From Agrocybe praecox (taxonomy: Eukaryota; Basidiomycota; Agaricomycetes; Agaricales; Agrocybaceae), in contig OZ024851.1 in assembly GCA_964017145.1 (NCBI GenBank), positions 2,666,001 through 2,730,000 on the forward strand: a stretch of DNA of 64,000 nucleotides. Reading direction: 5' to 3'. The notes below the pieces were generated by a model that saw only the letters and a program-made list of their open reading frames with translations, ran no database searches and had not been told where the DNA came from. Made by a program: the position numbers and the translations under genes. Positions 14,564-61,000 of the stretch are shown one piece after another; the first letter of the stretch is position 1; each line of letters begins with the position of its first letter.

Positions 14564-15031
14564 GTGGGTGACTACTAGGGAGTAAAGGCGTCATGAGCAA
14601 GTGAAGGTGTTCATGACGTCCACCCGGTATTTGGGGGGAACTGCCTCAACACGACAAACGAGGATTCGGCCTCCCGGATTTTAGGTTCGGGAAACAATTC
14701 GTCTTCAGAGCTGGATACGGATGTCATGTCTAAGTCGCCCATTCGCAATATAGAACTGGTTATGGATAGTAGTTCAACTTCAAAGTATGTTGTGCCTACA
14801 TATCACGGGCGCGGTCATGTGTATGTAAATATATGAACCAATTTATCACTGTCGCGTCGCGCGACGCGTAAATTATCTCCATGTGTGCCAAGTTTTCTCT
14901 GATTTCGGAAACGCTTGAGCTGGTAGTAGACAATGAAGCACTGTGTACATTAAATTAGTTACACGAAATACACTATGTTCTCCTAACAGGGAACTATCAC
15001 AGCAATATGGCCTCCTAGGCCTATAGGGTTG
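14564..15031. other. Intergenic with CG-rich palindromic site shared with the 30.5-kb region
   Basis: This is 3' flank of the membrane-protein gene. At about 14855-14875 it holds a near-palindrome built from GTCGCGCGAC. The corresponding position downstream of the paralogue (about 30498-30518) has the same word with small changes. A 45-codon open minus frame (about 14608-14745) has no recognised content. Confidence 0.5.
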
Positions 15032-39049: not shown

Positions 39050-42000
39050 ATGTTGCTTTATAATCAGAACTCAAGGATGACAGAACCTGACGAAGATTGG
39101 AAAAACGCCCTACGTGCAAGGACAGCCAGTGCTGTCAAATTTATGTATGAGTGATGCATAGTTGCCCCACATAAAGTATGCATCCACAAGGGCAACTGCC
39201 CAACTGCCCAAAGTGATGCATCAAGCCCTCTGGCTGGCCTATTGTGACCATTTGTGACTATAGTCATGTGTCTAATATTGATGGGATCAAAATCAATGCA
39301 CATGACTTTTTGCTTGCCTCTATTTACATGTTTGGGCTCCGTTCATATGTTTATATGGCCTCAAATACAAACAAATAATAAATAATGATGTCAGCAGGCA
39401 GGGGCAGGCCTGCTACAAAACAAACAAAGCCTTTGAGTGACATCACATCCAAACAACCTAATAAGGCAAGAGGACTTTGGACTTTGAGATTTTGCGATAA
39501 AGTCCTCTTGATACCATGATAGACGGGACTAATACATGACCAAATAAGATCAAATCTATTTTTAGAACACATCCATTTTTTGCTTTAGTCTATTTTTAGA
39601 ACAATTACGAATTTGCCAAATATGATGGAGTTATTTTTAGAACTGATCTATTTTTAGAACTCATTACATATTTACATGGTTTATGAAAATCTATTTTTAG
39701 AAATTTTTAACAAAAATAACTTTGGTGGCTGTGCACTAGATCACATGACTATACTGTGGCTATGCATCAGATCACATGACTTTCACATGACTACGCCCCT
39801 CTAGTCACTGTTGGTCACCCTGATGCATCACTTTGGGCAGTTGGGCAGTTGCCCCTGTGGATGCATACTTTATGTGGGGCAACTTAGGTTGGGTCATGCA
39901 TACATCTGCCAGTAACAGGTGGCAAGGACTGAGAACGACCTACGCTACATGATCGATGATGCAGACCGTGAACGCAATGTCGAGCTTGCCAAAACACCGT
40001 CGAATAGAAAGAACATCGAGAAGGCCCACGACGATGCATATGCTTGTATTCGAATACTCAAAATGGAGCAATACTATTACCACTTGACAAAAGAGCGTAA
40101 TTACCGCCGATGGATGGCTGGTATCCCTGTGGACCCCGAGTGGGAGGATATGTTCAAGAACGAGAGAGAGGAGTTTTTGATGTTGAATACGAGCGAACGA
40201 ATTCCTAGTGGTGCCTTCAAGATGGAGGAAGAAAGCGAAGCTGTGATGGTAGGTGATAAACTTCTCCTTAATATTAATGACTAAAAGGCTCATCAATATC
40301 AAGCTTAATTATACAGAGGGACAGGAGGCACAAATCATTGAAGAAGTCCTGGCGCGGGTCGCAGACGATGAAAAACGTCAGGAGGACGAAGCTATTGAAT
40401 TAATGAATGATTATGAAGTGTCTCGGATGGACTTCATCCAACAACAGATGTACCTCCTTCAACAGATCGCATACAACAAACACAAAGAGAAAACCACGAT
40501 GCAGCACGAGAATCGTGAACATGTTAACCGCGACAATTTGGGCACCTCATCAGGTGTAAGCTTGGCAAATCAAACAGGACGAGATTCAAATGGAGGGAGA
40601 GCAATTTAAGCGAGCACTGGCAGAAGAAGAGGCCAAAAACAGAGTCAAAGCTTTCGAGGATGACATAAAGAAGATGATGAGGGACGTGGGTGAATTAGAG
40701 TATGAAGCGAGCCAGAAACAAAAGGAGATCGTGTGGAAAGAGGCGGCTTTGAAGCAAATAGCGGAGAGCAATAGTAAACTCCAAGAGGAAGCAAAGAGGA
40801 TGGCCAACGACATCACAGAGAACCAACAAGGCCTCATACGTTTGGAAGAAGAAAAGGAAAGGATAACTCAGGAAATTGAGGGTCGAAACAAAGAGTTCGA
40901 TCGTCGCGAACAAGAGCTGGTGCAACGAGAGGCTGCGGTGGCTGAAGCAAAGAAAATGGAGGATGATATGAAAGTCAAAGAAGAGGAGGCCAAACGAAGT
41001 GCCAAAGCTCTGGACGACGATTTGACAAAGAGGGCCATCCTTATGGAGAACTTGGAGTCAGAACTAGTCCGAAAACATGACGAGATCAAACAGAAGGAGG
41101 AAGAGTTGAAGAAAATAGCGGAAAGCAATAGGAAGACACAAGAGGAAATTCTGGAGCAGAAATGGGCCTTAAACCATCGCGAGATGGACCTCCAGCGTCG
41201 GAAGGTAGAGATGAAGCAGAAGGAAGAAGGGGAGGAAACGAGCCAAGTTGCCTCTGCAAAAGAGAAGAAAGAAGACGAGGTCGAGAAGAAATGGGGGGCT
41301 CTTAAACGCAAGGAAAGGGGATTGCAGCAACAGGAAACGACTCTCCAAACAGAGAGGAATGCCACCGGACACAAAATTACGAAAGCGAAAGAAACATTGG
41401 ACAAGTTGAAGGAGCAAGCCGAGAAAATCTTACAACAAGCTCGAGATAAAGAGATTGGGATATGGGGCGTTGAACGCGAAGTAAAACAAAACGAAGGGAA
41501 AATCCAGGAGAGAGAAAAGGCCATTTCTCGCCGAGAAGCAGAATTACAAGCACGCGAGGTCGAATTGGCAAAGAAGTTTGAAGTCGTTAAGCAACGAATA
41601 AATGACTTCGTCCAATGCATTCCTGTACTACCCCAACAGGCTTTTGTTCTGGAGGATGGGGATGGTGGACGGTCGACCCTCCTGCATCGACGAAGCATGC
41701 AATCTATCTTGTCCTTTTCTACCATGTCTTCGATTGAAAGCACCAGCACCGTCGCGCCGCAGAAGTCCCAGTGGGAACTATACCGGGAGATGGCAAACCG
41801 AGAAGAGAACAACAGACCTGGTGGTAGCTCTGCGGCAAGCGAAGGCTCCATAAGCAACAGTAATTCGACTTTGGCCACAAATTCAACGTCCACATCCTCT
41901 ACGGCAACTATATATCGTAATCGACCCGCACGGATCCACAGTAATTCGATGAGTCCGGATGACTCGCATTCCCAATGTCAAGCGCCCAAGCTGCAGATTT

Positions 42001-42170: not shown

Positions 42171-42507
42171 AGTTTCTCGTACTCATGAACTGCTTTCAAA
42201 TGTACCACCACCTGGTCTTGGCGTCGACCACAACAACTTTTGGTTGGATATACAGTCATTACCTAGTCAATGACCCATCTCGGTCAATGACCCAAACTCG
42301 TATTTTGAGCTCAAATATCAATCGATTTCTTAGATTTTTGTGCAATCTCTTCATTAAGTACCTATCTATGGTAATCCAGACAATCTAAGCTCCCCGCCTT
42401 TTACATCTTCCGATGTCCATGGATAGATCAGATTCTGAGGGATTTACCAATATTGTGAACAGGGTTGCCATACCCATGACATCAAATCTTTTCAGGCCAT
42501 TATTATT
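42171..42507. other. 3' flank of coiled-coil paralogue 1
   Basis: Non-coding. It contains GTCAATGACCC twice (about 42272 and 42294), preceded by CAGTCATTACCTA. The same run occurs in reverse orientation near 57112-57130, beyond the 14-kb element. Confidence 0.5.
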
Positions 42508-42514
42508 AAATAGG

Positions 42515-42753
42515 CACATAGAATAGTGTATATGTACCTAACCACTACGTAGTAGCTAAGGTGACATAATACCCGTAGTGTACGTGCGGAGCTGAGTCGG
42601 CCCATTACCTACATTATACCCATACTATACGGATCGGCCCAGATAGCTACATAATAACGTGGCATACGTCAGAGCGGATTCCGCTGGCTGGGCTTCCGCA
42701 GGTTCCCTCGTCCGGGATATGGTGGCTATTGGTATGGCATTCCCGGATTTTGA
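42515..42753 (+). repeat. Left 239-bp terminal inverted repeat of the KDZ element
   Basis: Starts CACATAGAATAG and runs to CCCGGATTTTGA. It matches the reverse complement of 56340-56578 at 237 of 239 positions; the two differences are in GGGATATGG/GGGATGTGG and GGCTATTGG/GGCAATTGG, both near the inner end. Confidence 0.95.
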
Positions 42754-42811
42754 GAGTCCGGAATCAACAGACACCAGCATAAGGCGCACAAAAAACAGTA
42801 AAATTCAACAA

Positions 42812-43875
42812 TTACAACATATCTAGAACACATTTAAGCAGGTATTCTCCCTCTGCCCATTCCCTATCAATCCTAGTGAAGACATCAAGATAATATGTTT
42901 CCATGCGAAGTTGATTTCTCCTGCCCTCTTTCATGATATTGAGCCTTGCATCGTATAGGTCAGCATCCCAGCGTTCCAAGTCCGGGTTTGCCAAAAAGTG
43001 AACTATGTAAAGGTTTTGTTCCGTAAAATTCTATGGAAATCAATCACATTAAACATAGTTAACAGAGTTAGGGGGGGGACGATACTCACGTAGTTGTATG
43101 CAAAGGAGGTATGGGAATCGCAGATAAATTTGTCCATAGAAAATAAAGTCGGATCTTGCTCTGCCTTGGAGAGAGGAGAACGCCCAGTATGGTTTACGTG
43201 TCGAGCATACTTTCGTGAAGCGTTAATTTGTGGGGAAAACATTTTGTTTCCCGTACATTCCATGTCGTGAGCAATCAAATCCTTCACTGATCGTTTGTGT
43301 GCCGGTATTGCCGGACTTTGTGCTTGGGCTTGGGGGATCGGCGAATGCAACGTTGCATCAATCTCAGCATCAGAGCCTGATAGTGAGAGGTCCTGTGGAA
43401 GGACGGCATAGTGATTGGATTTATGTTGATCATGAAGCGCCTCTTCGGATCGATGAGACGGGGATGTTTGGTTCATAAATGAACGACGTTGATTCGGCGG
43501 AGGTGACAGCAGATCTGCTACATAGTACCGACCTAGTCTGGGAATAGCGTTATCGCCGCTGACTGGTGTCGTAATGTCCGGAGATGGAGATAGCATCTCC
43601 GTGTAGTAACGACCTTGGGGTTTGCTAATCTCGGGGGACAGCGATGGGGTCTGATAGTACCTCCCACGTCGTGGCTTCAGAGGGGTGGAGACCACTGGCG
43701 ATGGAATATCCGGACTTCCCGCTTGATCAATCGCTACATCGTGAAGGATGTCGGCATTGTGCGATGCCTTTTTCCCCTTTCTTCGCTTTGATGTAGTCTT
43801 GGACACCGCTGTGTGCGATCCTGGGTCTGTCGCTCCAGATCTCTGGCTGTCGGTATTCTTCTTGGTTTTTTTCAT
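42812..43875 (-). CDS. KDZ element gene 1: unknown protein with GRYY repeats
   Basis: Two exons (43090-43875 and 42812-43030), joined in phase across a 59-base intron, encode 334 residues. The start at ATG 43875 (MKKTKKNTDSQRSGATDPG) was preferred over a TTG further up. The N-terminal third is basic and disordered (SKRRKGKKAS, a likely nuclear signal). Three tandem motifs follow: RRGRYYQTPSLSPEI, PQGRYYTEMLSPSPDI and RLGRYYVADLLSPPPN. The C-terminal quarter is a compact charged segment: NPDLERWDADLYDARLNIMK, then ETYYLDVFTRIDREWAEGEY. I do not recognise the family. The gene sits next to the left terminal repeat and diverges from gene 2. Given the position it may help transposition or regulation, but that is a guess. 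Confidence 0.8.
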
Positions 43876-44076
43876 GGGACTGTACTGGGTCAAGGGTAAA
43901 AGGTAAAATGAAAGCTTTAAAGCAAATTCAGATCAATCCGATAAGAGGCTATTTCCGGATATCACGTGCAATGTGATTGCGTTTAAACGGTCAAGTCGTA
44001 CTTACCGGCTATATTTGCTTTTAACCCCAATCTTGCTTGTTTCTCAATCGTTTCCCCCAATCTTTTATCCCTCAAC
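43876..44076. promoter_or_regulatory. Divergent promoter region between element genes 1 and 2
   Basis: The 201 bases between two divergent start codons must contain both promoters. A CACGTG box lies at 43963-43968 and a CTATATTTG TATA-like word at about 44011, some 65 bases before the gene 2 ATG, followed by a pyrimidine-rich leader. Confidence 0.5.
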
Positions 44077-46653
44077 ATGCAATCCAATTATATTGTCCAC
44101 AATCTCAAACCTCGTATCAAGGCTGCCTTTACCTCACAGGATGGGAATGCCGTTCCCCAACTGCAAAAGGACGTGTGTGAATACTTGTGGAAATGGAGCA
44201 TCACTCCATCTTGGAACGAAAATCAGTCAGAGGCCGAATTTTTCGCTATGGATCGCACCATTGTGAGTACTCAACTTGGCTACTTCATGTTTGTTTACTA
44301 ATGAATCAATGATTCTGCAGATCTTGCTCAATAGTGTACGCGTCAACACGGGATACGCAGAAGACGATATTTTCTCTTCATTGGTGGATGCCCTTACCAA
44401 GTGGGATGGCAAAAACCCAAACACCCCATACCCACCATCCTATGTCAGGAATTTTTTCAAATCCTGGGATGACGCACACCGACCGCCTTCTCCCAAGAGC
44501 CGCTACCTCAAACCCTACATACTCTCGGATGATGAAGAACCCATCCGACCGCCAGCCGCAGCCACCGGCAAAACTGTCACTTTCCGGGCGGCACCTTCCC
44601 TCGCCGAAACGCGTGCAGTTCCGAAGAAGAACTTAGTCGTCGAGCTAACTAGGAAAGATGCTCGCGCGACCAGTAAAGCGAAGCCTGTTCAGGACAATAC
44701 GGACGAGAATGTCCGTCGGGCAGGGGGAAAGCAGAGGGATCCGACTCAGGAGAAGGAAGCAAGGAAGAGGACAGCGCAGCCGGAAGAGATTACGCACAAG
44801 AAAGACGGAAAGGAAGACAGTGCACGGAAGAAACAAACACCAGCGGAGGACGTGCCACGCGCCAAGAGCGTGAACAAAGAAGACCGAGAACCTGCAGCAA
44901 AAAGGGTGGAAAAAGAGAAGATCATCGCGCGCGAGGCTGAGGCTAAGCCCAATAAACAGGTCTCGACCGGCAAGAAACCTCCGTCCACAAAGTCCGGGAA
45001 TGCCGGATCCCGCTCCAAGCAAGCAGAGTTGACATCGAGCGAAGACGAAGACGAGGATGACGAAGAAGAGGGAGGTGCTTCCGAAGAAGATGATGACGAG
45101 GAAGACGAAGATGACGAGGTGGATGCAAGCGAAGACGAAATCGACAAGTTCGTAGCCCGTTATTCCCGGACTAACAAGAAAGGGAGCAAGAAAGCTGGCA
45201 AAGGGAAAGCCGCTATTGCCGACGCTCGACATGGGAAGCAGAAAACAAGAATGAACTTAATGGGTGACCACAACGACAGCGACGTCGAAATGGCACCTCC
45301 GGATGTCACTGATGCAGAGTCGACGAAGAAAGACACCCGCAAAGGATCCACCAAAAGACCGGCAACTGCGCCAAAAGCCAAAAGTGTCCAGGCTCCAAGG
45401 CCAACGCCTCGCGCAGAGTCCATATTGGACATTCCGTGCAGTATCTGCCTCGTATACGGGACGTTGTGCACTTATTCAAACAAGGACACACCGCGTTCCA
45501 ACAAAGCAAGGTCTTCCTGTGACCAGTGCCTCGGCAAGAAAGCGAAGTGTAGTTTTGCAGTTCCATCCCTCCCTCCCTTCTTCAATCAAAAGGATATGTC
45601 TCCGGAGGTGCGCAAAAGTATTCCTCATCTCACAGCCTTGTTCACTGGCTCCACGGCGAGCATTCGAGTCTTGCGTAAGTTCTGCATCGATCATATGTTT
45701 TGTCATGGTTGACACTTTTTGCAGCGGACATCGAGGATGACATGCGCAAGATTGAAAGAGACGTACGCACCATGAACACGCGCATGGACACCATGGTGCA
45801 AGTTTTCCACAAGACAATCGTCGACCTTCATGAAAATCTGCTGGCAGAAATGCAGACAATGTACGAAGCACTTGTCGCCGACCTTAGCAACGCATGGAAT
45901 GGAAGTCCGCAAGTGCAGGCGCCGGCTGAGGAAAGGGACAGTGAAGAAGAAAAGTCGCAATCGCCGCGCGCTCGTTCTGAAGCCCCTGAAATCGACGATG
46001 AGGAAACGGGATTGCCCACATTGCCCATATCAGCTGCGGATGCAAGGAAAGCGGACGTCCATAGTGCAGAAGATGCGACGGCTAACATGCAAGTGGATAG
46101 TTCGGCATTGCCAGAAGGTCGGGGTCCACATCTGTCAACTCCGGACGCGACACCAATTGGACCGCTAATACCGGCAGGCGTCTCACCCCTTCCGTCAATT
46201 CCATCTGTTACTCCCAACAACTCGACCCTCCGACCACCTATTCCAACAGTTGATGTGTCATTGAATCCAACCCCATCTGCACCATCCCACATCAACTCTA
46301 TTTCACCTCCATCACTCAATGTCGTTGCTGCCACATCTTCTACGCTTGTCCCGCCTTCGTCTACATTAGCTGGCATTGCTCCAAGCAAGACCCGGCCCAC
46401 ACTCCCGACTTTATCAATAACACCGACCTCGCCCGCGGGATTGTCTACTTCTCTTCCCCCCTTAACACCGCTGCCCGAAGAATACGAGTCAGCCGATGAT
46501 ACACGCAGACGTTCCAAACGACGAAAGGTGGGTGATTCAGCAGCACCTAACAATGTCCCACGCCCAGCGAAGAAATTGAAGACTAAGAAAACGGTCAAGT
46601 CACCGGCCGTCGTTCCCGATGAAGATGCTCTGGACTCGGCAGCTCCTATGTAG
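44077..46653 (+). CDS. KDZ element gene 2: large nuclear protein with paired CX2CX6C cluster
   Basis: Three exons (44077-44262, 44321-45674, 45725-46653) join in phase to give 822 residues. The N-terminus (MQSNYIVHNLKPRIKAAFTS) includes a predicted globular segment through NFFKSWDDAH. A long acidic and basic low-complexity region follows (EDEDEDDEEEGGASEEDDDE). The centre holds CSICLVYGTLC, then 16 residues, then CDQCLGKKAKC. These two CX2CX6C blocks resemble a stretched fungal Zn2Cys6 cluster and could bind DNA. A coiled coil follows (MRKIERDVRTMNTRMDTMVQ), as in Zn2Cys6 dimerisers, then a Pro/Ser/Thr-rich tail and the basic nuclear signals RRRSKRRKVG and RPAKKLKTKKTVK. DNA binding, perhaps of the element's own ends, is inferred. 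Exact family not identified. Confidence 0.82.
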
Positions 46654-46793
46654 TTCTTAATTTCTTCGCCATGTATGATATAAAATATTGCGTCATATGT
46701 TATCTGCTTTTTGGATAATCTGGAGCATAAGCCAAAAAAGGTGGATTTGATTTGAATTTTAAGAGAGGCATATTGTTTACAAGTTAATGATAT

Positions 46794-49313
46794 CTACTTT
46801 GGACCAACTTTCTTTCTTTTCCTTTGCTCTTGTTTCTCCTCAGCCAAAGTATACAAATCCTTTCTAGGAGCTGATCGTCGTCTCTTTGACAACGCATTTT
46901 GGACAGGCAAGTCTGTATCCGGAGTTTCCGGCATTGCAATAGTTGTTTCCGGCATTCGCGGCAATGCAACACTGGCATCCGGAGTTGCCGTCACTGCTGC
47001 GGGAGTTATGGTCGGGATTTCCGCCCGAGGTTCTGAACTTGATGCCGCTGTTGACGGCTTGCTAAGTTGGTTATCCGGCATTTGCGTTTGATTTGAGCGC
47101 GGTATTTCCGGTATTTGTGCGTTTGTGTTTGTGTTTGTGTTGTTAGCCTCAGAACAAATGAAAATCTGTTTTTGTAATCCTGGGTGATTGTTGACTCCAA
47201 GGTGAAAAAAATTCTGTGGGTGTGATTGAAGGATAGGTGGTACTTGTTGCGGAATGGGTAACGCCGGCAGAAGGGGTTGCATATTCCACATATCACTTGT
47301 GGAAGCATTGCCTGAAAACAAATATTGTCCAGATTCAAAGCCAACATTAGGATACATGTTATGTTGGGAGTAGTGACTTATATTCTCATGCCTCATTGGA
47401 GTCGGACCGTTTTGCGCCATTGGAGGAAACATAGGATTTACTTGCCATGTTGTATGGTGAAAGCCAGGTCCGTCAATCCCGCTCTGAGCCATCACCGGTA
47501 CGTTAATGACGGACTCTGTTTGAACATGCATTCCGTCATTGCCAGCAATAATCCTATCACTGCCGCTAATCCCGTTGCCAGCACGAGTATTATGTCCGTC
47601 ATTCACGTCTTCCGATGCACTGTCATTCCCGGCATTAATATTAAAGTGTCCGGTAAATGGGTATTGACTATTATCATGTCCGTTAATGGCGGGTCCGGTA
47701 TTGACTCTGTCGTGTGATGTTTGTAATCCAAGTTCAGGGTCAAGATTACTGACAGAGTTGACTGTGCGACGGCGTCTCACAGATTTTTTGTGCCCATTAA
47801 TTTCGTTTTCTAGAGACCTGCCAGCAATGACGGGTTGAAGACCAACGGGATAAGAGGCTGATACGATATCCTTGCCTACAATCACAGTGCTGAACATGAA
47901 GGGCACTTCACCGATTTTTTGACCTTGTCGCCACTGATCCAAAATACGCTGACAATCTATACGATTCATCTTGCTTGGATCCTTGAATGCAATACACTCC
48001 GGAATATATTTCAAGTCAAAATATTTTCCCGGATTAGTGCTTATGTCGTTCCATGGAGCACTCTTAGTCTTCCCGGACGTAGCAGTTTCTGCATGGACAT
48101 TGAGTCATGAATGTCAAAAAAAAAAAAAAGTTCACCCACGATAGTGAGCGTTGATAAACGTTCGAATTATCTCTTTTTGTGTCTCCAGCATCTCGATATC
48201 ACCGCTGCGACAAAATGGAAGTGGTATTACCGGCATTCCCATCATGTTCCAACCCAGATCGCCTTTCTCGAAGTGAGTCATGTGAGGCCCGGCAATTCCG
48301 GTCTCTATTTCCTGAATTCTTGCCACGTATTCAACGTATGCTTCCTTAAATTGTTCAAAGGCTGGACGATTGAATTCTTCAAACCTGGGGATATTGGGTC
48401 CATTACTTCCTCTCCTGAACTTTTGAGTATTGTCATGGCTGCAGTTAAGGTGAGGTTAAATATATGTCCGGCAATTGCGTTTATACAACTTACACAGCAT
48501 ATGCGACGTTCCCGTTCATTCGGTAGTGACATTCAAATGTCAGAGATCGCATACCCATTGTCTTGAATTTATGCTCGTCCATACGATTGATGATTGAATG
48601 CCCATAGCGTTCAACATGTCTGCAAGAGTGATTAGATTCACAATATAAGAAAATATCTATGGCTTTTCGTACTTTGCTTGTACTTCAGGAGGAACAGTGT
48701 CCTTCTCCCATCTGGCAAGCTCCTCCTCCATCTCTACTCTCTCTTCTTCGCTCATGCTGTTCACGACCTCCTTCACGGCCTTCTTGTAGAATTTCAGCCA
48801 ATCACGCGATCCGGGACTTGCTCTATTCGATAATATCGAGCATACATCCATAATTTCCTGCTTTTTCTTGTGCTGGACGACTTTGGTCACAGTGATATTA
48901 CTATGAAACCCAAGGTCTCGTATAATTTTTTTCCCCCTAGAATGGTTTGCGAACCATGTCAGTACTTGCTTTTAAGGGTTAATGGGTTGTTAGACGCAGT
49001 CGGCAGTGTGCTACTATAAACTACTGACCTTTTTCTTTCGCTTCCATTCCATCTTTCTAGCATTCTCCCCACATGCTTCTTTGCTATACCTGTCTCCCCA
49101 CAGCTCTCTTATCGATGTGGCAACTACACCCTGAACCAGACGACCCTTTTCCAGGCGCGATTTCTTGCTTTTATATTCTTCGAGATGTTTCTTTAAGATT
49201 GCCTTTTCAGCGTTCGTCCATATTTCAGCTGGCAGCCTCAACGAGACATCAGGGACAGGAATGGGTTCATTGGCTGTGTCAAAGGTATCAGATTGATAAT
49301 GGTCTGTGGACAT
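46794..49313 (-). CDS. KDZ element gene 3: Agaricomycete-expanded protein of unknown function
   Basis: A multi-exon minus-strand gene from the ATG at 49313 (MSTDHYQSDTFDTANEP) to 46794. Exon 1 encodes LPAEIWTNAEKAILKKHLEEY and ends at a GTCAGT donor; exon 2 resumes QVLTWFANHSRG. The middle includes MSEEERVEMEEELARWE and the segment APWNDISTNPGKYFD, then FKDPSKMNRIDCQRILDQW. That block (an APW...FxDPSKM...LDxWR pattern) is one I recognise from many lineage-expanded hypothetical proteins in mushroom genomes. The C-terminal half is Asn/Gly/Ser/Pro-rich and ends with basic runs KRRRSAPRKDL and EQRKRKKVGPK, probable nuclear signals. It is divergent from the transposase and probably co-regulated with it. 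Function unknown; a transposition accessory role is plausible. Splice sites in the 48.1-48.6 kb region are less certain. Confidence 0.75.
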
Positions 49314-49656
49314 CCTGTGTTATCGTAGAGATCAATTCTCTTTGTGTGAATATATAAATGAGGTGTATCAAGCGGTTATTTTTGTTATCTCCTGCACGAT
49401 CACTTTGAGAACATATTAAAGCCTTTTGTATTTTCTGACGGTTATTCTTATAATTCTCTGTTTGCAACACACTCGCTAGTGGCATCCTATTCATTGTATT
49501 CTAGAGATCATCATCTTGATTTGGTCAATAACTTGCTCTGATAACCTCAATAGCCTATTAATCTTCCAGCCCTCTTATCCCGGTATAGCAATGATCATCA
49601 ATGATACACTGTTGTGAAACTCATCAAACAAGATTAGGCTTTCCAGACTCTCGGCC
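49314..49656. promoter_or_regulatory. Divergent promoter region between element gene 3 and the transposase
   Basis: 343 bases separate the two divergent ATGs. A TATATAAA word lies at about 49350, close to the gene 3 start. The rest is AT-rich with no clear sites. Both promoters must be here. Confidence 0.5.
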
Positions 49657-52600
49657 ATGCCTAAAGGATCGACACAGATTCCAAGAGCAAGAGGTGTAAT
49701 TACCTCAAATGTTCAGCGGGTTAAATGGTCAACATCTGGCCGTATTTCTAAATCAGTGACAGTTCATGAAGCACGAAAGCGTAAACGTTCGGAAAGCCCT
49801 CCTACCAACATTTCTCACCGTGGTACGGAAGGCACTGTGCAGTATGAGGCAGAGATTAGTGCAGAAGACGCTATCAATAATATGAATGAGGTAGATCTGG
49901 AACAGAACAGAACAAAGGTAAGACAACCACGATCGGGATTCTCAATGTCTGACCATAGTTTAGTCCCAGAATGATTACCTGCGTGAATGGCTGTATAAAC
50001 GGAACACTGCCCTTCAGACAATTCTACACTGAAAAGCACACCCTTCCACTGAGACTCTCTGTAGGGTTTGCGAGACCAAACCAGGATTGTGGAGGTGTCG
50101 TACCTGTGTAGGAGGATCATTATATTGCTCCTCCTGCCTACGAACATCTCATGAATTACTGTGGTATCATAGGGTTGAGCGATGGAATGGGTCTTTTTTC
50201 CAAATCGGAGCACTTTGGCAAGTCGGCGTCACTCTAAATCTAGGCCACAACGGAAAACTCTGTTCGAGGAATACAACGCCAATGCTGGACATAGATATTA
50301 GTACGGTGATGCCGGGAATAAACACGCCGGACTTGACGGGAAATAATGGAATGGAATTGCCGGACTTGGATAATTCTGATGCGGAAATGCCGGACTTGGA
50401 TGATCCTTACGCGGGAATGCCGAACTTAATTGACTTCAATTCCAATCGCATTAAAAACATTCCGACTACTTACACAGCACCAGAAATTGAGCCAGACGAT
50501 GATGATGATGAATACATTACCGTGGAATCTGACGATGAGACAAATATATGTCCCAAAATGCTACCTAAACCACCAAAAACGGACACAAACGGCAATCCCT
50601 ATATAACGGTTGTGCATACCTCCGGTATTCACTACCTGGCGACAATCCCTTGCATTTGCGAAAATGCCAATGAACATGACATACAATATCTCGATATGGG
50701 ACTCCTCAGCGCAAGTTATATCAATATCAAGACTGTCTTTACACTATCAGTCTTGAAGGACTTCAGATTGTCGAACCTCGAGTGTAAAACAAGCGCATAT
50801 CAATACTACCAAAAGCTTCGAAGGCTCACATGCCCGGCATTCCCACGCCTTGTTCCAAATCGATATGCCGAACTTCGTCGCGCCACACGTCAATACCGAG
50901 ATTTGAAAAAGAGACAAATTCATGGAGTCCCGTACGATGAGCAACCGGGGAAAAAAGGAAGCATGGGTCTATTTTGTGCAGCATGCCCGCAGCCTGGAGT
51001 CAATCTCCCAGATGGGTGGGATAAAGACAGCAAACGACAACTGTATATCCGGAGTTTCGTGTCGGACGGTAATTTTAAAGCCGATCACGTTAAGCAGAGA
51101 AATGCTGCAGATGATGTATATCTATCGTCAGGGGAAGCATATCTGACGGAAGAAACAGAGTATGCCAAACACCTCGCAGAAATGGTGCATATTGCTCCAA
51201 AATATAAAATTGTATGTCTATTCATTAAATTCGTCCGTCAATAACATGCACTGGCACTGAAGTATCCGCTATTAACCGCTTTTGTAACTACGTTGCTGCA
51301 GAAGGAGACCTGTCACAATCACCATGCTATCATAGACGCGTCCAAAACCTTGGCTACCCTTGATAGAACCGGTGTTGGTGCTCATGCTTGCGGACGACAT
51401 GGTTGCTTCTGTCCGGGTAGTGTAGTTGATTTTCAAAAGGGCGAACGACAGATGAATATGGATTGGTCTCTCTGTGAAACCCTGAAGACAACAAACTTAG
51501 ACGGCATCACCGACATCCTTCTGATCTATGACGTGATGTGCCAGTATCATGTCAATTTGTATGAACGTGTGGCGGAGTCTAGCCGAATGTCGTTACCGGA
51601 CACTATTCGCATCATCAAGGCTATCGGTCAGTTTCATGTACATGGCCATCAGGAAGAATGTCTCTATCGGTTTTCAACCAGCTTTATTCCTGGAGTAGGT
51701 GTTGTGGATGGCAAAATTTTGGAAACTTTATGGTCAACTTTGAATGAGATATCCCGCAGCACCCGGACCGCAACCCTCGCACATCGCGGCGAGGTTCTTG
51801 ATGACCATATGGGTGATTCAAACTGGAAAAAAATTATTAACACGGGTATTTCTATCTCTACGCTTCAGTCATTATATAATTTTTATTGTTTTGCAGGGCC
51901 AATGATTATTAAGAAGTATAAACGTGCGGTCATTGAGCAAGAATCCAGTCAGGAATATTTTACGGAATTATCAAAGCGCATATCTCCGGACAAGATTCAA
52001 ATTTGGAAAACTGAAATTGAGGCAGCTGAATCGCAGCGTCAGGCTGACCTCACATCAATGGACATCATGCGGAGTCGCATCAAAAAAGGTACACCATTTC
52101 TAGCGCATTCTACACAAATGTTATAACTACTTTAGCTCCCGGAAAGAAAGTCACCGAACTGTCAATAGCGGAAGCGGAGCTTCAAGCCGGTCAAGTAGGA
52201 CAATCTGCCTGGATATCGACTGGAATTAAGATAGTGGAAGATCAGTGTGTTCATTTTTCTATTGGCTATCCATGGGTGGGCTTCAAGCTTATACATCGTA
52301 GGTTAAAATTACAGGCTCACATAAGAAGCCTTAGCTTACATCCAACTACCGATGAAAAGTTGGATCTTACGGGACGGCGTCAACGATTACGAAATCGTAT
52401 GGATGCATACTCGAAGTTAGTATATGACCATATGGATGTCGATGCAGTCCAATCTGCCATCAACACCATCGAGGCAGGAACGGACTGGAAAGAACCTCTC
52501 ATTTTTAGTCCGGATGATGCGGACATTGATGATGGAGTGCCGGATTTACAACCCTTAGGATTTGATCACCTCTCAGCAGAGCCCGAGAAACAAAAACTTA

Positions 52601-53400
52601 TATTTCTGTCCTCGGTCACGCCACAATACGTCAATAACGCAATGACGATCTCACTTCGGGAAAAGGAAGGGCTACTATTAAAGGGTCAGGCCACTGATTG
52701 CATCGAACAGATAAAGGAGCATATAGTTCAGATGTCATGGGAGTTTACAACCAAAGTCCGACAAGCTTCCAATAATAAGCAAACTTCACGTGCCTGGAAG
52801 GGTGTCAAAGTCCTCAAACGTGGCCTCCGTCATTGCCGAGCTATGTATAATTACTGCCGCCGGGTTCTGCGGAAGATTTACGGCCCGGACACTGTGGATG
52901 CGGACTTTCCATTACTTTCCGACAAAGATTGTGAAACAAGCAGTGCAGTTGGTGACCCAAACGCACCAGGTCTCAGCAGAAAAAAGCTCTCCTGGATCTG
53001 GACGTGGATTGGTCCAATAGGTACCGCGCAGGATGCACCTGACAATCAAGTTGATTACCAGACCGAATGTAAGACGCAGCCATACTATTTTATTTCTTGG
53101 GCTAATATATGTATAGTTTATAGAATTCATTGGTTGCGTGCACGAGCACAACGGAATAGGTGGCAGGAAGAATTAGATCTTACTGAGCATGAGATGATAT
53201 GGACCATTCGGTATTACATGTTTATGGCTCAACGGTGGGCAACGCGAAGGGATACAAAGGCCGGGGATCCCGGCTTACAAGCTTACGCCGAACAGCAAAT
53301 CAGCATGTGGAACGAGCTGGGAAGAATTGCTCAAAAAAATTTTTGTTCTGCTAATTTTGCACATGTTCGTATATGGAAACCAGTTTCCCATCTAACATAG
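49657..53400 (+). pseudogene. KDZ transposase with one in-frame stop near the N-terminus
   Basis: Exons 49657-49917, 49970-51211, 51302-52088 and 52136-53400 join in phase to about 1,180 residues. After a basic N-terminus (ARKRKRSESPP) comes the cysteine-rich module typical of KDZ proteins: LCRVCETKPGLWRCRTC, LYCSSCLRTSH, then YHRVERWNGSFF and LNLGHNGKLC. The catalytic region shows GLFCAACPQPGVNLPDGW, CHNHHAIIDASK, HACGRHGCFCPGSVVDFQKG, IYDVMCQYHVNLYE, GQFHVHGHQEECLYRFS and GKILETLWSTLNEIS with HRGEVLDDHMGDSNWKK. These match the conserved order of KDZ transposases, with Asp and Glu as candidate metal ligands. TGA at 50030-50032, between ILH and KAHPSTE in one continuous frame, would truncate the protein at about 107 residues unless bypassed. 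Everything after it looks conserved and open. Confidence 0.9.
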
Positions 53401-53530
53401 ACATTTGTTCTATCAACGGCCGCCAATGACGATCCTTGCTGTCAATAACGTAAATTAGTTCCCGAAAGTGCTCGGGTTTCTTAAAACACCGGTCATGTGA
53501 TACCCGCAAACTGCATTGTAATCAGATTCC

Positions 53531-54897
53531 ATGATTGTTGATATTGTACCTTGTCCTCGTATCATCATGAATCCCTATGCAAACATGTTGGGCAATATTG
53601 TTACCTGCCCCCCACCAGACGCCGCTATTGACGACATGATCCCCCGTCATAAGCGGGAAGAATTGGCGATTCTTGAGCTACATTTCATGCATGCTCATCT
53701 CAAGACCGGTCTCCGAACCTTTCTTGATCGCATTAGCGGCGGCGATGACGATCTTTACGTTCGATTGCAAACATCTTTAGCGGATGTCCTGGTGCGTATG
53801 TACTCTGTTTTTGTCTTCTTGATCTTATCGTTTTTAGAGTTGTGTCCTTGCCCAAATGGGTTATTGTGCCATCATGGGTTATAAGTTTGATGTGCCGTTC
53901 TACTTCAGGGAATTGGCGGATATATTCGGTTCACCAATCCAACCAAAATCCGCCTGGAGATGCGAATCCGCCATCAATAACGAGAGTGATATTAATCTGG
54001 ACTTGTATATTCTTCGGGGTTTCGAACGGCACCTTGATTGGTGGAATGCAGATGAAAAATATCCACCTATATCATTGAACATAATGCATAACTTGTTTAC
54101 GTTATGGGTGGCCAAGGTAAGATCTGTACCTCATCATCGCCACGATATTATTAAGCTGGCTTCTCGTTACTTGTTAGGTTGACAGAACGGAGGGATTGGA
54201 TGTTGTTATAGATAAGATCCCCAAGGATCCCGTTTCAGGTATGACTGAAGCCCTGGTCCAACTTGGAATTTCGCGCGACCGAAAAGGGAAAGGAAAAGAG
54301 AGTCAAACGCCGTCAATGCCGGGCCCAAGTACCATCCCTCAAACTCCAAAACATGACCTCAACATGGCTGCCATCAAAACCGTTCTCAAGTCCAGTTTGG
54401 AATCTTTCTCCAAAGGAAGGCACGTACTTGCTGCGGCAAAAAGCATCGTCGAAAACGGTGTACACAAGTCAACTCACCGTATCCAAGCAATCTCTATTTT
54501 GGAAACCATTAATGCCCAGGTTGGGAACCCGTTTCCAGACGATAGGTTGCATCCTAAATTCCGACAATATTACCCCTACGTACCCGCTAAAACGGGTGAG
54601 GAAGATTCGCCAACTAAAAAAAGTCCCAAGAAATCTCGTGTTCGTCGAAAGGTCATCCCTGCTTCACAATCCGCCAATGCCGATATCTCCGCTAATAACG
54701 GCTACGCAACCCTGACAACAATCAGTGGTTTATCCGATTTTTATGAAAATAATTCTGATGAAAGCTCAATTGATTATCCAATTGAACATCCACCTGCCTC
54801 TCCGTCAGATAGTGTCGAGATTGTCAGTGCTAGGAGGCTTGAAGATGACGATGACGAAGACTGCTCGTATGACGGGGATTCCGAAATTGATCATTAA
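53531..54897 (+). CDS. KDZ element gene 5: unknown protein downstream of the transposase
   Basis: Three exons (53531-53791, 53838-54116, 54178-54897) join in phase to 419 residues, starting MIVDIVPCPRIIMNPYANML. The N-terminal half seems globular (LELHFMHAHLKTGLRTFLD, GYKFDVPFYFRELADIFG, FERHLDWWNADEKYPPISLN). The C-terminal half is low-complexity with basic KKSPKKSRVRRKVIP and an acidic end, DEDCSYDGDSEIDH. It is in the same direction as the transposase, 130 bases after it, and only 16 bases from the end of the convergent dioxygenase gene. No family recognised. Exon structure is supported by phase and by continuous hydrophobic patterns. Confidence 0.75.
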
Positions 54898-54913
54898 TTC
54901 GTGTATGTATTAT

Positions 54914-56185
54914 TTACAGATGGAATTCGTATTTGTCAATATTCATCCAAGTAAAGCCATCAACACCCATATTTTTCATTACATTGTCTTTCATATAAAA
55001 AGCAATACATGTCCTACCTCCATCGCACTGTGCTCCATGTCGTAGGATTCTACTGCAAAGAGCAATAACTGTTCCTGGAGAATAGCGAAATTCTATTCCT
55101 AGTCCCGGGAGTTCAAAAATACCATTTTCGTAAGTTCCTAGCGCAAGGAGGGTATCCATGCATTGGTACGCTGATCCGTTATCCCTGTGGATGGGAGTCT
55201 GTCGGCTATTGATAATGTTGATGACACCGTAAGGTGAGGCCCAAACTTGGAGGATGGAGTGAAGGAGATAGCCTTTGTTGACATTTTCCGGCCATAAGGC
55301 CAGCTGTCGCAGCACATCACATCCGGCCTGGAAAAGCTCCGGATGGACGACATTTAAAATGCTTCCAATGATGGCAATGCCGAGAATACTCGTTTGGAGC
55401 CATTCCGTACTTTGAGGTTTAGTTAATTGCAACGAGACCTCCATTGGGTTCGATTTCTACATCATTCTTATGGTTTAGAATAGTAAATGGTACTTGATAC
55501 AATAACATACCTCATGTGCTTGCTGGTACCAAGCAGGAGAAAGAGTAACATTTCCCGGTGTCCCATTTTCGCTAGTAAAAAAATATGCTGGCGATGTCCG
55601 CCAACTCTGGCTAGTACATTGGACTTGGAATGCACTGTTCAATACCGTCATTGACGTCATGAGCTGATCCTTTCTTGGCAGTCAGTATTCCGATCAAATC
55701 CGTCATTTCCAGAGTTGCGGACATACCTGGCGTTCACGTAATAGCAGATCTGGAAGGTACCAGGCCATTACATCGCCTCGGCTATCTGATACTAGACATG
55801 GTTTGTGCATGTTGGTTGGATTCGCAAATATAGGAGGGTATTTCTCATCCAAGTTCTTCTCGAGTTTGACATTTTGGCCGGTGCACTTCGGATGCTTTTG
55901 TAGAGCTATGACGTAGTCTTCAGCGCTCCAACTTGTTTGAACTATTTCGGTTTGTGAGTATTACGAAAGAAAAATAAAATTCTATGTATCAAAAATACCT
56001 TGGTTTTTGTATGCTTGCGCCAGCATGCCAGCAGCATGGTTGCATTCCAACAAAAGGGTATAAGTCTATGTGGATGGATATGGAATGGGCCCTATTTCGT
56101 CTTTGATTTTAGACAGAAATTTGGCTTTCATGTAATCAGCAATAGCTTGAGTCAATGAGAGAGCAACTAAGGGTATGCTATGCAT
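54914..56185 (-). CDS. TET/JBP-family 2-oxoglutarate/Fe(II) dioxygenase (predicted 5mC oxidase)
   Basis: A minus-strand gene, last in the element before the right terminal repeat. The final exon (54914 to about 55457) holds the catalytic double-stranded beta-helix: the HxD pair in TPIHRDNGSAYQ, then DTLLALGTYENGIFELPGL, YSPGTVIALCSRILRHGAQ with the distal His, and GGRTCIAFYMKDNV with the Arg that would hold 2-oxoglutarate. This order fits fungal TET/JBP enzymes, which oxidise 5-methylcytosine. Upstream exons read VQTSWSAEDYVIALQKHPKC, WYLPDLLLRERQ and SPAYFFTSENGTPGNVTLSP. The earliest segment, from the ATG at 56185, is followed by an in-frame TAG at 56068-56066. Either that is a nonsense change or the protein starts lower, for example at MLAQAYKNQ. 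All catalytic residues are intact. Confidence 0.83.
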
Positions 56186-56339
56186 GACAGTGGTTGAGAG
56201 TTCAGATCTTCAGATGGTATGTCTCGGGATTCACTGATAATCACATGACATATGTACATTGATGCGCATTTAAGTGCTTGAGATGAGGGGAATAAAATCT
56301 GTGCTCGTTCATCCGGCAATACCGTGCTGAGCTTGTTTA

Positions 56340-56578
56340 TCAAAATCCGGGAATGCCATACCAATTGCCACCACATCCCGGACGAGGGAACCTGCGGAAG
56401 CCCAGCCAGCGGAATCCGCTCTGACGTATGCCACGTTATTATGTAGCTATCTGGGCCGATCCGTATAGTATGGGTATAATGTAGGTAATGGGCCGACTCA
56501 GCTCCGCACGTACACTACGGGTATTATGTCACCTTAGCTACTACGTAGTGGTTAGGTACATATACACTATTCTATGTG
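56340..56578 (-). repeat. Right 239-bp terminal inverted repeat of the KDZ element
   Basis: Reverse complement of 42515-42753 with two mismatches, ending CTATTCTATGTG. It is immediately followed by the second AAATAGG. Confidence 0.95.
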
Positions 56579-56585
56579 AAATAGG

Positions 56586-58030
56586 CTCTGTATAACTTCT
56601 CCACTCTTCAGATCCAATTTAAAGCTTCGAAAAGTCAAGGAAATGGCAGAACTGCTGCAGTTTCTCCGAAAATAGATATGAGAGCGGGTCACATCACGCA
56701 TTGCCATTTCGGGAAAAATTCCGAAATATGACAAGAGAAAACCCAGATGGTAGAAGCCAAGGATGTCTCCGATGTGAAAAGCAGTTATCAAACCAAAGGT
56801 CACAGATTTCGTAGAGGAGAACGGAGAAGAAGAGAATGATGGCGATAGATCGAGTTTAGGTAGCGATTCGGATAATCGCTAAGCATTCCTAATCTAGAAA
56901 TATCACATTGATGTGACGTGGGTCATTGACCGGGTTTGACATGATAAGGCTAGTTTCAACTGATTTCACATTGCGAGCATCAGATGCGCGATTTCTCTTA
57001 TTATGAGTTCATATATCTATTCCTTACATATAAGCACACAATTCTATCTCCTTAGTTTTTCAGATTTCAAAATTTTGAAAAACTTGAGGCCGTTTTAAAT
57101 TTGGTAGGGTCATTGACTAGGTAATGACTGTAAACGTACTTTGATTTATTATTGATAATAAAACATGTACAAATCCCTTTCATAAAGTGAGGGTGTTGCA
57201 GTGTGAGCATTTTATTTATTTTTAAAAAATAGCAGATGAAGTGTGGTGGTGTTACGTGTAGAAGAAATATTGAAGAAATAGCAGAAATAAGGAAAAAAAA
57301 GTGAACACCGTGACGCGACGCGATTCGCGACATGTCAGTATTGCGTGGGAATTTGAATTTGAAGGCTTCTCAGCGCATCACCTACGTTACAACTTCTCCC
57401 GCTATACACAATAACCCCACACGCTAATCCTTGTACTTTCTATATATAACCAACAGCAACATCCTTCATCTTCATATGAATTAGGCTCGTGACCAGCCGC
57501 AGAATGAGATATCGCGAAGCGATGGAGAATCTCAAATCGAGGTCCTGCTCATTTGACGGCCTGTCACAGGTCTACATATGAATAAATCATATTATAAGCA
57601 TGACTTCAAAGAAGTCGATTTGTCCGGACGATCAAATAACGACTACCACCTCCAAGGTCGAAAGCCAAAAGATACAGAAAATGTGATTACTCTTCATCAC
57701 ACAGCAACACCAAGCTCGCACAATACAGGATGTACAAGAACTATATACTTAGAAGCAGAACAGAGCTGTGCATGCCGTTGATGCTGTGCGTGTGATGGGG
57801 CGTGGCTACAATGAGGCTAGTTGGGAATCTTTTGGGGAGGTTTGTCTACATATATTTCAATTTTCGTGCGACTAATCCTTCCACCCGTATTGTAGACAAA
57901 AATTATCTGAAAATTTGGGAGAGGTATGTGATCAGCCTAGCTTTAGCACAGTCACAAAACCACTTTATTCTAAGTCTTACTGAAATATTGCATTTCTCTT
58001 TCTTGTCTTATCTATGTAAGGATCGCATCG
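56586..58030. other. Intergenic, 5' flank of coiled-coil paralogue 2
   Basis: No gene recognised. It has GGGTCATTGAC at about 56928 and 57112; the second, with AGGTAATGACTG after it, is the inverse of the 42262 sequence. A CG-rich word at about 57311 (GACGCGACGCG) resembles the palindromes at 14.86 and 30.5 kb, and a single GCGAAGC lies near 57516. A 67-codon frame at 57578-57781 has no recognised content. Confidence 0.45.
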
Positions 58031-61000
58031 ATGTCCGGATCGGAAAGCCACCGTCGTCCAAGTTCCGGCCAGTCGTCTGCCAGCCATTTTCCAACCCCAG
58101 TCGATCCACGGACCACCAGCGATGTCAACGATTTGGAACCAAATGAGGAATGGAAAAAGTCGCTACATAAACGAGTTGAGGATGACCTACGCTATATGTT
58201 TGCCGATGCAGACACTCAGCGCGATGTTGAGCTCGCCAAAGCGCCATCGGAAAGAGACCGTATCGAGAAGGAGCACCACACTGAACAGGCTTATATTCGG
58301 TCACTGGCGATGGAACAGTACCATTATCAGCTGAAGTAAGAACGTAATCAACGCCGATGGGTCGCTGGTATCCCTGTCGACTTCGAATGGTCGGAAATCT
58401 TTGTGAAGGAACAGCAGAAAATTATGGACAAGATCAAGCGGGATGCTGATGGGAGTTCATTAGAAGGCCGTGCTGCAAGTCCTCCCCCAGCGACACCGTC
58501 GCCTCGACCGACGACATCATCCCAGGATGCTACTCCGTCTCGACCATCTCCTTTGCAGCAGAAGTTTACCACGGAGGAACGTAAAGAAATTACTTCTGCG
58601 GCGCGACCTATTCGTAGAGCCTCTGACGCACATCGAAATGCCGAATCGTCAACGTCTCATGACCCCGAGGAAAGGCGGCGCACAGCGTCTAGTAGCGGTA
58701 GTATCAGTCGTCGGCATGCGCGAGACCGATCGTCGCATCCTACTATGCCAGCAGCTCTTGTCGTGGAACCGGAAGATATGCTGGCAATGCCCCCCGCAGT
58801 ACCAATACCGCCACTGTCAACATCGCCATCCTCTTCCCGTCAGAGAATGTACTCTCAGTCTTCTGATAAGCCTCCACCTTCTCCAAATGACCGGATTGAA
58901 AGTTCCTTGGGTCGGTCATCAGGTTCAATACGATCTGTGAGGTCTGACAGGAGTACGCGCGCTTCGCCTGCTCCCGAAATGTGGAAGCCATCGGTTAATC
59001 CCACTGAAGATGCCATCAGTCCTTCTACACCTCCACCTGCGCCCCCACCAAGTTCTTCTTCTACTAAATCTGTCAATCTTGGCCGTCGGGGTAGTACTGC
59101 GAGTATACGGTCGACTGGCTCTGGTGCAAGCATCCGACCTTCAATTACTGAGACGATACCGGAAAAAGTAGACGGTGTCCTGGAGGATAAAGCATCAGAG
59201 AAAGATGCGCATCAACAGAAGAATCTCGACAATAACGGTGTCGCAAGCACTAAACGTAGACTTTCAGTGAAACAAGAGAAACGGCCTCAGCGTCGGCGGG
59301 ATAGTAAAGCGAGTATACCTGACAATGCAACATCACGCCAAGACGAACCGCCTCACGTATCGCGACCTCCTTCAGTTTCCGCAGCCTCTTCTTCGACATT
59401 CTCAAACCATCCTGGTCCATCTTCATCTGCGACGATGCATTATGCAACATCTTCCTCTCCTGTGAAACCATCAAGTCTCAACCAACAGTATAATCCTCCA
59501 AGTCGTGTTCTGTCTCGTTCAGGTAGTAACGGCTCTTTCCACTCGGGCGATTCAGACAGATATTACTCTGGCATAGACCGACCATATAAATCTGCATTTT
59601 ACACTGAACTATATCACTCTCTGTCATCTAGATCAACTCCACGCGACCGCGAACATGCTTATCCCGGCCCCAGAGACCCTTCGTATTCTGCACGACCATC
59701 TCACCCTCCTCCGCAGGCCAGATCACCTTACGGCAATGATAGAGAATATGGATATAGTCCTAAGAGCAGGGATTTTGAACCTATCTTGCCTTACAGCGAT
59801 TATCAAAGTTCGCATACGCCCATATCTCGGAGGTCATCTTTCAATTATGGGCGTGGCCGCGAGCAGCACCGGGAGTCTTGGGATGGTCACCGAGAAAGGG
59901 ATGACTCGCATTTCCGACAAAGCAGAGAATGGGACGACGATCGTGATCGAATGAGAGACGTCGATTACCGCGATCAGCGCGAACATGAACCTCCTCGCCA
60001 TGGTAGATATTCTGGTGGACCTTACTCGGCTCGGCCTCATTCTCCTGCAAGCTATCCTCCGCCGCCGTCAAGTGCAGGACGCCATGGGGGATCTATGGAA
60101 TACCTGCCTATGCATGAACTATACGATGATCGCGACAGAGAATGGGAAGACCAACCTCCTCCCCGATCTTATCGGCGACCTGCGCCACTGCAGAACAGCG
60201 ACGATTACGACACTTTCAGGAATCCATATAGCGGTGCGTCGCCACGGCCTTCAGGCCTAGCGCGTCAGCCACCGTATTCGCGTCGCGAATGGGAGGAAAC
60301 GAGTAGCGACAACAGGAGAATGACCAGTGATAATATTGGTTTGTCTCTTTTCTTCCTCTCTGCCTTTTTTCAGCTTCTCTTTCTACTTCTTTTATTCGCC
60401 TTTCTCTTTTGCAGTTATATAGTTTCACATCGCTCCTCGTTATCCTCATATCGTAGAACTAGAAAGTATAATACGCTATTCTATTGATATGCCCTTACCT
60501 GTTTGTGCATCTATTTTGTTTTTTTCTTCTCTTTTTCGTTTTGTTGCTTTTTTTCCCAGCTTCCGTATCATCTTTCCGTTCTCCCATCTATTTCATTTCA
60601 TCCCTTCTTCGTTCCCTTTTCAATGAATACACGTACTGACCTTTCTACTTCTACCCAGACAATCACTCGTCCACACCCCCGCATACCCCCGGAAGTATAC
60701 CAATACCTCGACCTCCTCCTCCTCCTCCCACCGAGAGTAGCACAGGCCCACGTCCTGCATGGAGCAATTGGGCAACGGAAGGTGGTTCTCGAACCACATT
60801 GAGCTTTGCCCGCTCGCCTCCTCCCTCGACGCCCTCAAACGACATGTATAGCAGCAGCCCTCGACCGCGGCGGAGATCGGGCCAACAGCCCTCGCCGTAT
60901 GAATCGACTCCTGCTCCTGCTCCTCCTGCTTCTGTGTATCCGGAAAGGCAGATGGCGACGGCGCCTGTTGATACGAGGCTGGCAAAAAGGTTGGCAAAGA

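Follow-up and report, generated by a model that had tools for sequence, protein, structure and literature searches.

A KDZ transposon of Agrocybe praecox with companion genes and a family-specific CpG word dispersed through its coding DNA

Results

The DNA described here is a stretch of 64,000 nucleotides from the mushroom Agrocybe praecox (contig OZ024851.1, positions 2,666,001 to 2,730,000; hereafter the window), which carries a KDZ transposon of 14,064 bp (42515-56578) with six genes, 239-bp inverted ends and a 7-bp target duplication. Gene order recurs among KDZ elements of this genome, each family carries its own array of a short CpG word, and the positions of the word sites differ between related copies; the heritable unit is larger than the transposase alone. 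The gene models, drawn by hand with GT-AG introns, follow one another as A(-), B(+), C(-), D(+), E(+) and F(-) (Table 1). They form the divergent pairs A/B and C/D with a convergent F, and the smallest gap, 16 bp, separates the stops of E and F, a layout that an earlier note on this DNA had described correctly. Comparison of the window with itself also returned the number of matching arm positions given in that note together with the AAATAGG flanks, 237 of 239, the two mismatches falling at repeat positions 205 and 213.

The boundaries of the element could be fixed at its insertion site. The flanks (42251-42514 and 56586-57132) are the two halves of one repeat of about 810 bp, which we take to be Tc1/mariner-like, judging by its ends. 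When joined, they match other copies of this repeat in the genome (a 59.17-Mb assembly of 347 contigs containing the window, searched throughout this work; loci are given as contig and position), the match at C3:2275978 spanning 1-813 of 815 positions at 92% identity. In all three of the other repeat copies in which the junction was aligned, the 7-bp site is single, with one substitution each, and these paralogous empty sites thus confirm both the boundaries and the target duplication. The locus is therefore, as had been proposed, a KDZ transposon held from boundary to boundary together with accessory genes.

The similarity of the ends had also been taken as a sign of recent insertion, and this reading does not hold. 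Ends of a DNA transposon are copied along with the element and keep no insertion clock; long terminal repeats are instead made from one template at insertion. Arm identity amounts to 99.2% within the window element and to 95.1% within a relative on contig C10, and falls to about 75-76% between the two. Arms so much more alike within than between elements measure homogenisation and not insertion age, and dating by end identity was rejected.

Searched against the genome, the 239-bp end gave 12 matches including its own two, and a 31-base pattern of the end, allowing two mismatches at most, gave 13, with none for the reversed control. Both ends are present at three insertions, namely the window element, C10:2964436-2977708 (13.3 kb, 287-bp arms, duplication CGACCGA) and C2:719544-730622 (11.1 kb, arms of about 1.07 kb at 99.7-99.8% identity, duplication GTAAACT), all three with 7-bp duplications and CA..TG termini. 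None of the remaining end matches showed a partner end in the sequence examined, which for six of them amounted to about 16 kb apiece. The C10 copy keeps genes A to E in the same order and orientation and F only as an N-terminal remnant; identical residues number 163 of 310 in A, 382 of 795 in B, 379 of 714 in C, 825 of 1146 in D and 264 of 404 in E. The introns of A, C, D and E agree in number and phase in the spliced alignment, apart from one 4-bp artefact in D, and the gappy alignment of B allows its first intron alone to be judged. Differences per non-synonymous site (pN, 0.18-0.35) are well below those per silent site (pS, 0.70-0.81, near or at saturation) in A to E, which indicates that all five genes were under constraint.

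The insertion on C2 holds no match to A-F at an E-value of 1e-4 or below, and its 350-residue frame has no Pfam match at 0.01 or below; by its content it is probably a non-autonomous derivative. Ends occurring apart from the internal genes had been named in advance as evidence against a unit of this composition. They do so occur on C2, while the C10 copy shares A to E along with the ends, and the gene-less insertion looks like a derivative of the unit and not like its refutation.

The description of the window copy as intact had to be withdrawn. Transposase gene D contains an in-frame TGA (50030-50032) within a stretch that aligns gap-free to the C10 coding sequence, and gene F contains an in-frame TAG (56066-56068) in an N-terminal exon that has a counterpart in C10; the latter stop precedes the catalytic domain and interrupts the reading frame. 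The best spliced alignment of the C10 transposase contains two stops and a frameshift. Either both copies would have decayed or some of the stops would be assembly errors. A candidate intron, noticed by eye, would remove the stop in D, but with it a cysteine of the cluster. Since both gene-bearing copies in the assembly look damaged, the window copy probably moves now only with help in trans.

Two of the six proteins were assigned to known families. The product of gene D matches the KDZ domain PF18758 (1.5e-41, 142.9 bits against a cut-off of 26.6) and the CxC2 domain (8.9e-21) and has in addition a sub-threshold B-box match, and the product of gene F matches Tet_JBP (5.1e-17). The nearest PDB match of the latter is CcTET of Coprinopsis cinerea (PDB 8jkk, 7vpn; 4.8e-34, over residues 157-352), with which it shares the HxD motif (as HRD), the distal His and the Arg, F alone having an in-frame stop. 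Asp and Ser stand at the hand-counted positions aligned to CcTET 337 and 331, in agreement with the AG-type, which according to the accessible text of the source has Asp at the former and Gly or Ser at the latter. Nothing above Pfam cut-offs was found for A, B, C and E (of E, exon 3 was scanned), the two CX2CX6C halves of B matching Zn_clus just below threshold (20.0 against 21 bits). Protein-database relatives were sought with C and E: 3 of 6758 candidates matched C, all from Agrocybe pediades, and 0 of 3723 matched E at an E-value of 0.001 or below. Overall, the closest proteins came from agarics of the genera Agrocybe, Flammula and Psilocybe. The structure predicted for a relative of C is of low confidence (mean predicted local distance difference test score, pLDDT, 38.7), with an N-terminus predicted as helical at moderate confidence (block pLDDT 56-83, residues 31-110).

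The genome contains at least 137 KDZ loci after merging (176 matches; 150 of 240 candidates scored), and TET has one match above the cut-off among 11 in all. A C-like query taken from a distant KDZ element gave 63 matches at 26 loci, 22 of them with a listed KDZ less than 8 kb away (21 divergent, one on the same strand; chance placement 3.7%) and four without. An E-like query found 13 loci, eight with a KDZ just upstream on the same strand and five without. The order B-like, C-like, D, E-like, in the orientations of the window, recurs at C12:209000-228900 and C7:529500-544300, which are bounded here by their genes and not by ends, and at C12:2520521-2534017, which bears inverted ends of about 840 bp and in which a target duplication was looked for and not recognised. 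All four proteins match between the C7 and C12:209000 elements by BLASTP, and C and D of the C12:2520521 element were matched in the same way. C of the window aligns to the distant C-like protein with a spliced score of 339, against 165 and 134 for controls (BLASTP 1e-4 to 6e-4). For the C12:209000 element the spliced alignment of B is poorly separated from its reversed control (344 against 279) and that of E is weak (167 against 119), so that B was assigned there by cysteine pattern and position. Two CX2CX6C halves are found in the B or B-like protein of all five elements, and gene A has a single short match outside the window family. Judged by order and similarity, the core of the unit is D together with C; B and E very likely belong to it as well, a placement that owes more to position and features than to sequence; A appears to be a family-level gene and the TET enzyme F a dispensable extra, copy-level or optional. 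The suggestion that the element could define the proteins of a mobile unit was thus borne out once relatives were brought in.

Comparison of the element with its flank brought out words containing CCGG, which stood out also in C10. The direct repeat CGG-N6-CGG, with the consensus CGGNAWTNNCGG, occurs 32 times in the window element and 22 times in C10 (background 3.4 per 14 kb). Of CGGNAWTNNCGG itself there are 18 copies in the former and 15 in the latter, where 14 kb of background holds 0.5. In order-3 Markov versions of the window element it averages 0.34 copies, with no more than 4 in any of 300 runs. Of its copies 17 are coding, against a mean of 1.1 and a maximum of 8 in 1000 synonymous shuffles, none of which reached the count. 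The CGG-N6-CGG sites lie on both strands and in all three codon phases of each, and the density of CCGG is the same between genes (6 in 1045 bp, 5.74/kb) as in exons (67 in 11,691 bp, 5.73/kb). They form 19 clusters in the window element and 18 in C10, at least 100 bp apart, and hence do not make up a single minisatellite. Among the coding sites, 31 in the window and 19 in C10, eight aligned positions are shared, a number from which alignment gaps may hide some; word density is kept while most site positions differ between the two copies. Genome-wide, CCGGNAWTNNCGG occurs 160 times with palindromes counted twice (reversed control 89), with 10 copies in the window element, where the genome rate predicts 0.04. 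A 30-bp minisatellite in the transposase exon (50353-50427) includes the motif in its unit.

Dispersed CpG words are carried by all five KDZ elements examined and fall into three classes by family. GCGGGA reaches 33 copies per 10 kb in the C7 element and 45 in that at C12:209000 (background 2.1), and AGACGCG 32 per 10 kb at C12:2520521 (background 0.4), whereas in elements of other families each family word occurs at 0 to 3.7 times background. The strongest dispersed 7-mer has a -log10 P of 9.8-32.5 among the five elements, and none of 12 control segments, some with long open frames that look retroelement-like by eye, exceeds 6.7; these Poisson values assume independent words and are used to rank. 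When the dispersal filter was left out, a tandem repeat raised one control to 18.7, and two controls had runs of N at the top. In four of the elements the words are clearly outside the order-3 Markov nulls of the element itself.

Across the genome the word AAGACGCGG of another KDZ family shows no enrichment, with 510 occurrences where its reversed control has 488. On contig C2, 36 of the 63 matches listed are gathered in five clusters, of which two coincide with KDZ loci. At C2:3747775-3751436, 13 copies lie within 3.7 kb, with no KDZ among the matches listed, and this is perhaps a gene-less family member recognisable by its word. Symmetric clusters of palindromic words such as CCGGAAATTCCGG were seen at C9:3671364-3673983 and C10:1075898-1077047 and possibly represent another element with similar sites.

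Two further repeats were noticed in the window. A 2-kb inverted pair (15029-17055 and 28352-30352, 79% identity) probably consists of duplicated host genes, and 205-bp segments on either side of the element (39930-40134 and 58177-58381, 73% identity) perhaps belong to related neighbouring host genes.

Table 1. Features of the transposon locus, in positions of the window
Feature	Positions	Strand	Remarks
Host repeat holding the element	42251..57132		TA/CAGT ends and 26-bp inverted repeat; about 810 bp when the element is left out
Target duplication AAATAGG, left	42508..42514		single copy at three paralogous empty sites
Left terminal inverted repeat	42515..42753	+	239 bp; starts CACATAG
Gene A	42812..43875	-	334 aa in 2 exons; no family; 163 of 310 aligned residues conserved in C10 relative
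Motif array	43302..56324	both	32 CGG-N6-CGG, 18 of the form CGGNAWTNNCGG; 31 exonic, 1 intergenic
Gene B	44077..46653	+	822 aa, 3 exons; CX2CX6C-X16-CX2CX6C (Zn2Cys6-like) at residue 435
Gene C	46794..49313	-	766 aa, 5 exons; at 21 of 26 loci a relative stands divergent to a neighbouring KDZ transposase
Gene D	49657..53400	+	KDZ transposase of 1184 codons in 4 exons, with CxC2 cluster; TGA at codon 108
Gene E	53531..54897	+	419 aa in 3 exons; no family identified; at 8 of 13 loci an E-like gene lies 3' of a same-strand KDZ
Gene F	54914..56185	-	TET/JBP dioxygenase; 4 exons, 367 codons; HxD kept; TAG at codon 40
Right terminal inverted repeat	56340..56578	-	
Target duplication AAATAGG, right	56579..56585		

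Discussion

The best explanation overall, to which we give about an even chance, is a KDZ element of the Kyakuja kind with a core of companion genes, whose word serves as an address putatively read by protein B. The element is a cut-and-paste transposon with long inverted repeats that makes 7-bp duplications, and the word would be its address label. Protein B, probably a dimeric Zn2Cys6-like factor, would bind the many copies of CGG-N6-CGG and thereby coat or mark the DNA of its own element. Such a coat may protect the element from silencing methylation (in copies that have F, this enzyme would oxidise 5-methylcytosine on the marked DNA) and/or may direct the transposase to the right element. 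According to the accessible text of one source (PMC5559640), factors of the Zn2Cys6 class typically recognise CGG triplets in pairs, as homodimers joined by a coiled coil. A putative coiled coil was noted by eye downstream of the cluster in B.

The Zn2Cys6-like pattern in the B proteins, together with the nearest known precedent, in Arabidopsis, is the reason why B is proposed to read the word. As far as the available text of two papers goes (PMC5735166, PMC10398659), the elements VANDAL21 and VANDAL6 likewise contain a dense family-specific short word, which the element protein VANC reads, removing silencing marks. The same text describes the VANDAL words as mainly non-coding tandem repeats in one orientation, unlike the KDZ words reported here, which lie in coding exons, on both strands and mostly outside tandem repeats. 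VANDAL and VANC moreover represent another superfamily with other proteins.

Several results weigh against an address read by B. Among the B-like proteins of other families one matches Zn_clus at an E-value of 0.51 (10.9 bits) and two not at all, and no match to a solved Zn2Cys6 structure was obtained. Genes D, C and E travel with the word as well, so that co-inheritance does not single out the reader, and with one TET above the cut-off against at least 137 KDZ loci, TET is not needed for the array. In the C12:2520521 element B and E were placed by position, together with cysteine pattern for B and inspection by eye for E, and gave no BLASTP match at 1e-3. Profile comparison of B of the window with distant B-like proteins gave a weak match (E-value 0.0035, probability 9%) and that of E with distant E-like proteins an E-value of 0.075 (probability under 1%), where seven unrelated pairings used as controls gave 0.12-0.85. 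Of the word itself it has to be said that introns hold little CCGG (1 in 850 bp), that the strict form uses five of six phases, sense phase 0 being empty, that CGG-N27-CGG is also frequent (23 and 28), and that the C7 word, with 20 copies, is barely outside the maximum of 19 in 200 order-3 Markov runs of its own element. Most of the leading spacings are divisible by three, which is a mark of coding sequence and is allowed for by the synonymous shuffle.

A reader other than B, be it the transposase, C, E or a host factor of silencing, repair or recombination, is rather doubtful but in our judgement still a serious competitor. The word is inherited together with every protein of the element, the transposase possesses its CxC2 cysteine cluster and the sub-threshold B-box match, and the relative of C has its predicted helical N-terminus. 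Paired CGG triplets, however, fit the habit of Zn2Cys6 proteins, the corresponding cysteine pattern belongs to B in each of the five elements, and a single host factor leaves the different word of each family unexplained. The prevalence of spacings in multiples of three, the word-bearing minisatellite, the low complexity of the protein linkers and the tandem repeat that lifted one unfiltered control could together point to a word without function, a by-product of composition, codon use, protein repeats or minisatellites. We regard this as improbable, since the synonymous shuffles never attained the observed count, the sites use both strands and every codon phase at a CCGG density equal in exons and between genes, the sites fall into many separate clusters, and the filtered scores of the elements lie above those of all controls.

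The view of A, B, C and E as passengers, host genes captured as cargo and lying outside the mobile machinery, is very unlikely. It finds some footing in F, which behaves as an extra, with one TET over the cut-off in the genome and a remnant in C10, and in the confinement of A to the window family bar one short match, and it is opposed by the order and constraint kept in A to E of the C10 copy and by the ties of C-like and E-like genes to KDZ loci. Least credible of all is an intact, recently inserted autonomous element, which the near-identical ends and perfect duplication might suggest: the stops in D and F contradict it unless both are assembly errors or are spliced out, and the ends are no clock.

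The element itself adds a member to a kind already known. TET-positive Kyakuja elements of Agaricomycotina were described in 2025 (Kojima 2025, PMC12730594), and the accessible text of that paper gives them a KDZ transposase with a TET of the AG-type, 7-bp duplications, CA..TG termini and Agaricomycete hosts, in all of which the window element resembles them. The same text states for two Laccaria families that they have no terminal inverted repeats, a statement that may not define the Kyakuja lineage, whereas the arms here measure 239-287 bp; and it describes neither genes like A, B, C and E nor a motif array. Long inverted repeats are shared with KDZ1, KDZ2 and KDZ3 of Cryptococcus neoformans, which in the available text of their description (PMC12810828) are 9-11 kb long, have repeats of 241, 139 and 169 bp and were shown to move. 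They differ in duplications of 8 bp (KDZ1) or 4-8 bp and in carrying CxC1 where CxC2 is found here, and that text mentions no TET and no companion genes. Both the TET-bearing KDZ kind and long KDZ ends are therefore already known, and the window element adds to the former long ends, which the two Laccaria families are described as lacking. Neither the companion core nor the motif arrays turned up in the literature searched, a search that did not take in the founding KDZ/TET paper (Iyer et al. 2014).

A broader proposal may be put forward tentatively, as possible and still well short of probable. Mushroom KDZ elements may address themselves by a family-specific CpG word spread throughout the body, coding DNA included, and putatively read by an element-encoded zinc-cluster protein that would keep the DNA of the family active and paired with the family's own transposase; between families, word and reader would diverge together, and TET would be an add-on to an older system.

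KDZ elements belong to the known carriers of fungal TET genes, and the literature searched treats them as a transposase with or without TET. The conserved companion core says which proteins to test for transposition, and the word may serve as a sequence signature for gene-less family members. If the proposal is true, a word running through coding DNA would record with unusual directness how a transposon marks its own body, and the self-action of TET-bearing transposons would become testable by simple binding and methylation assays.

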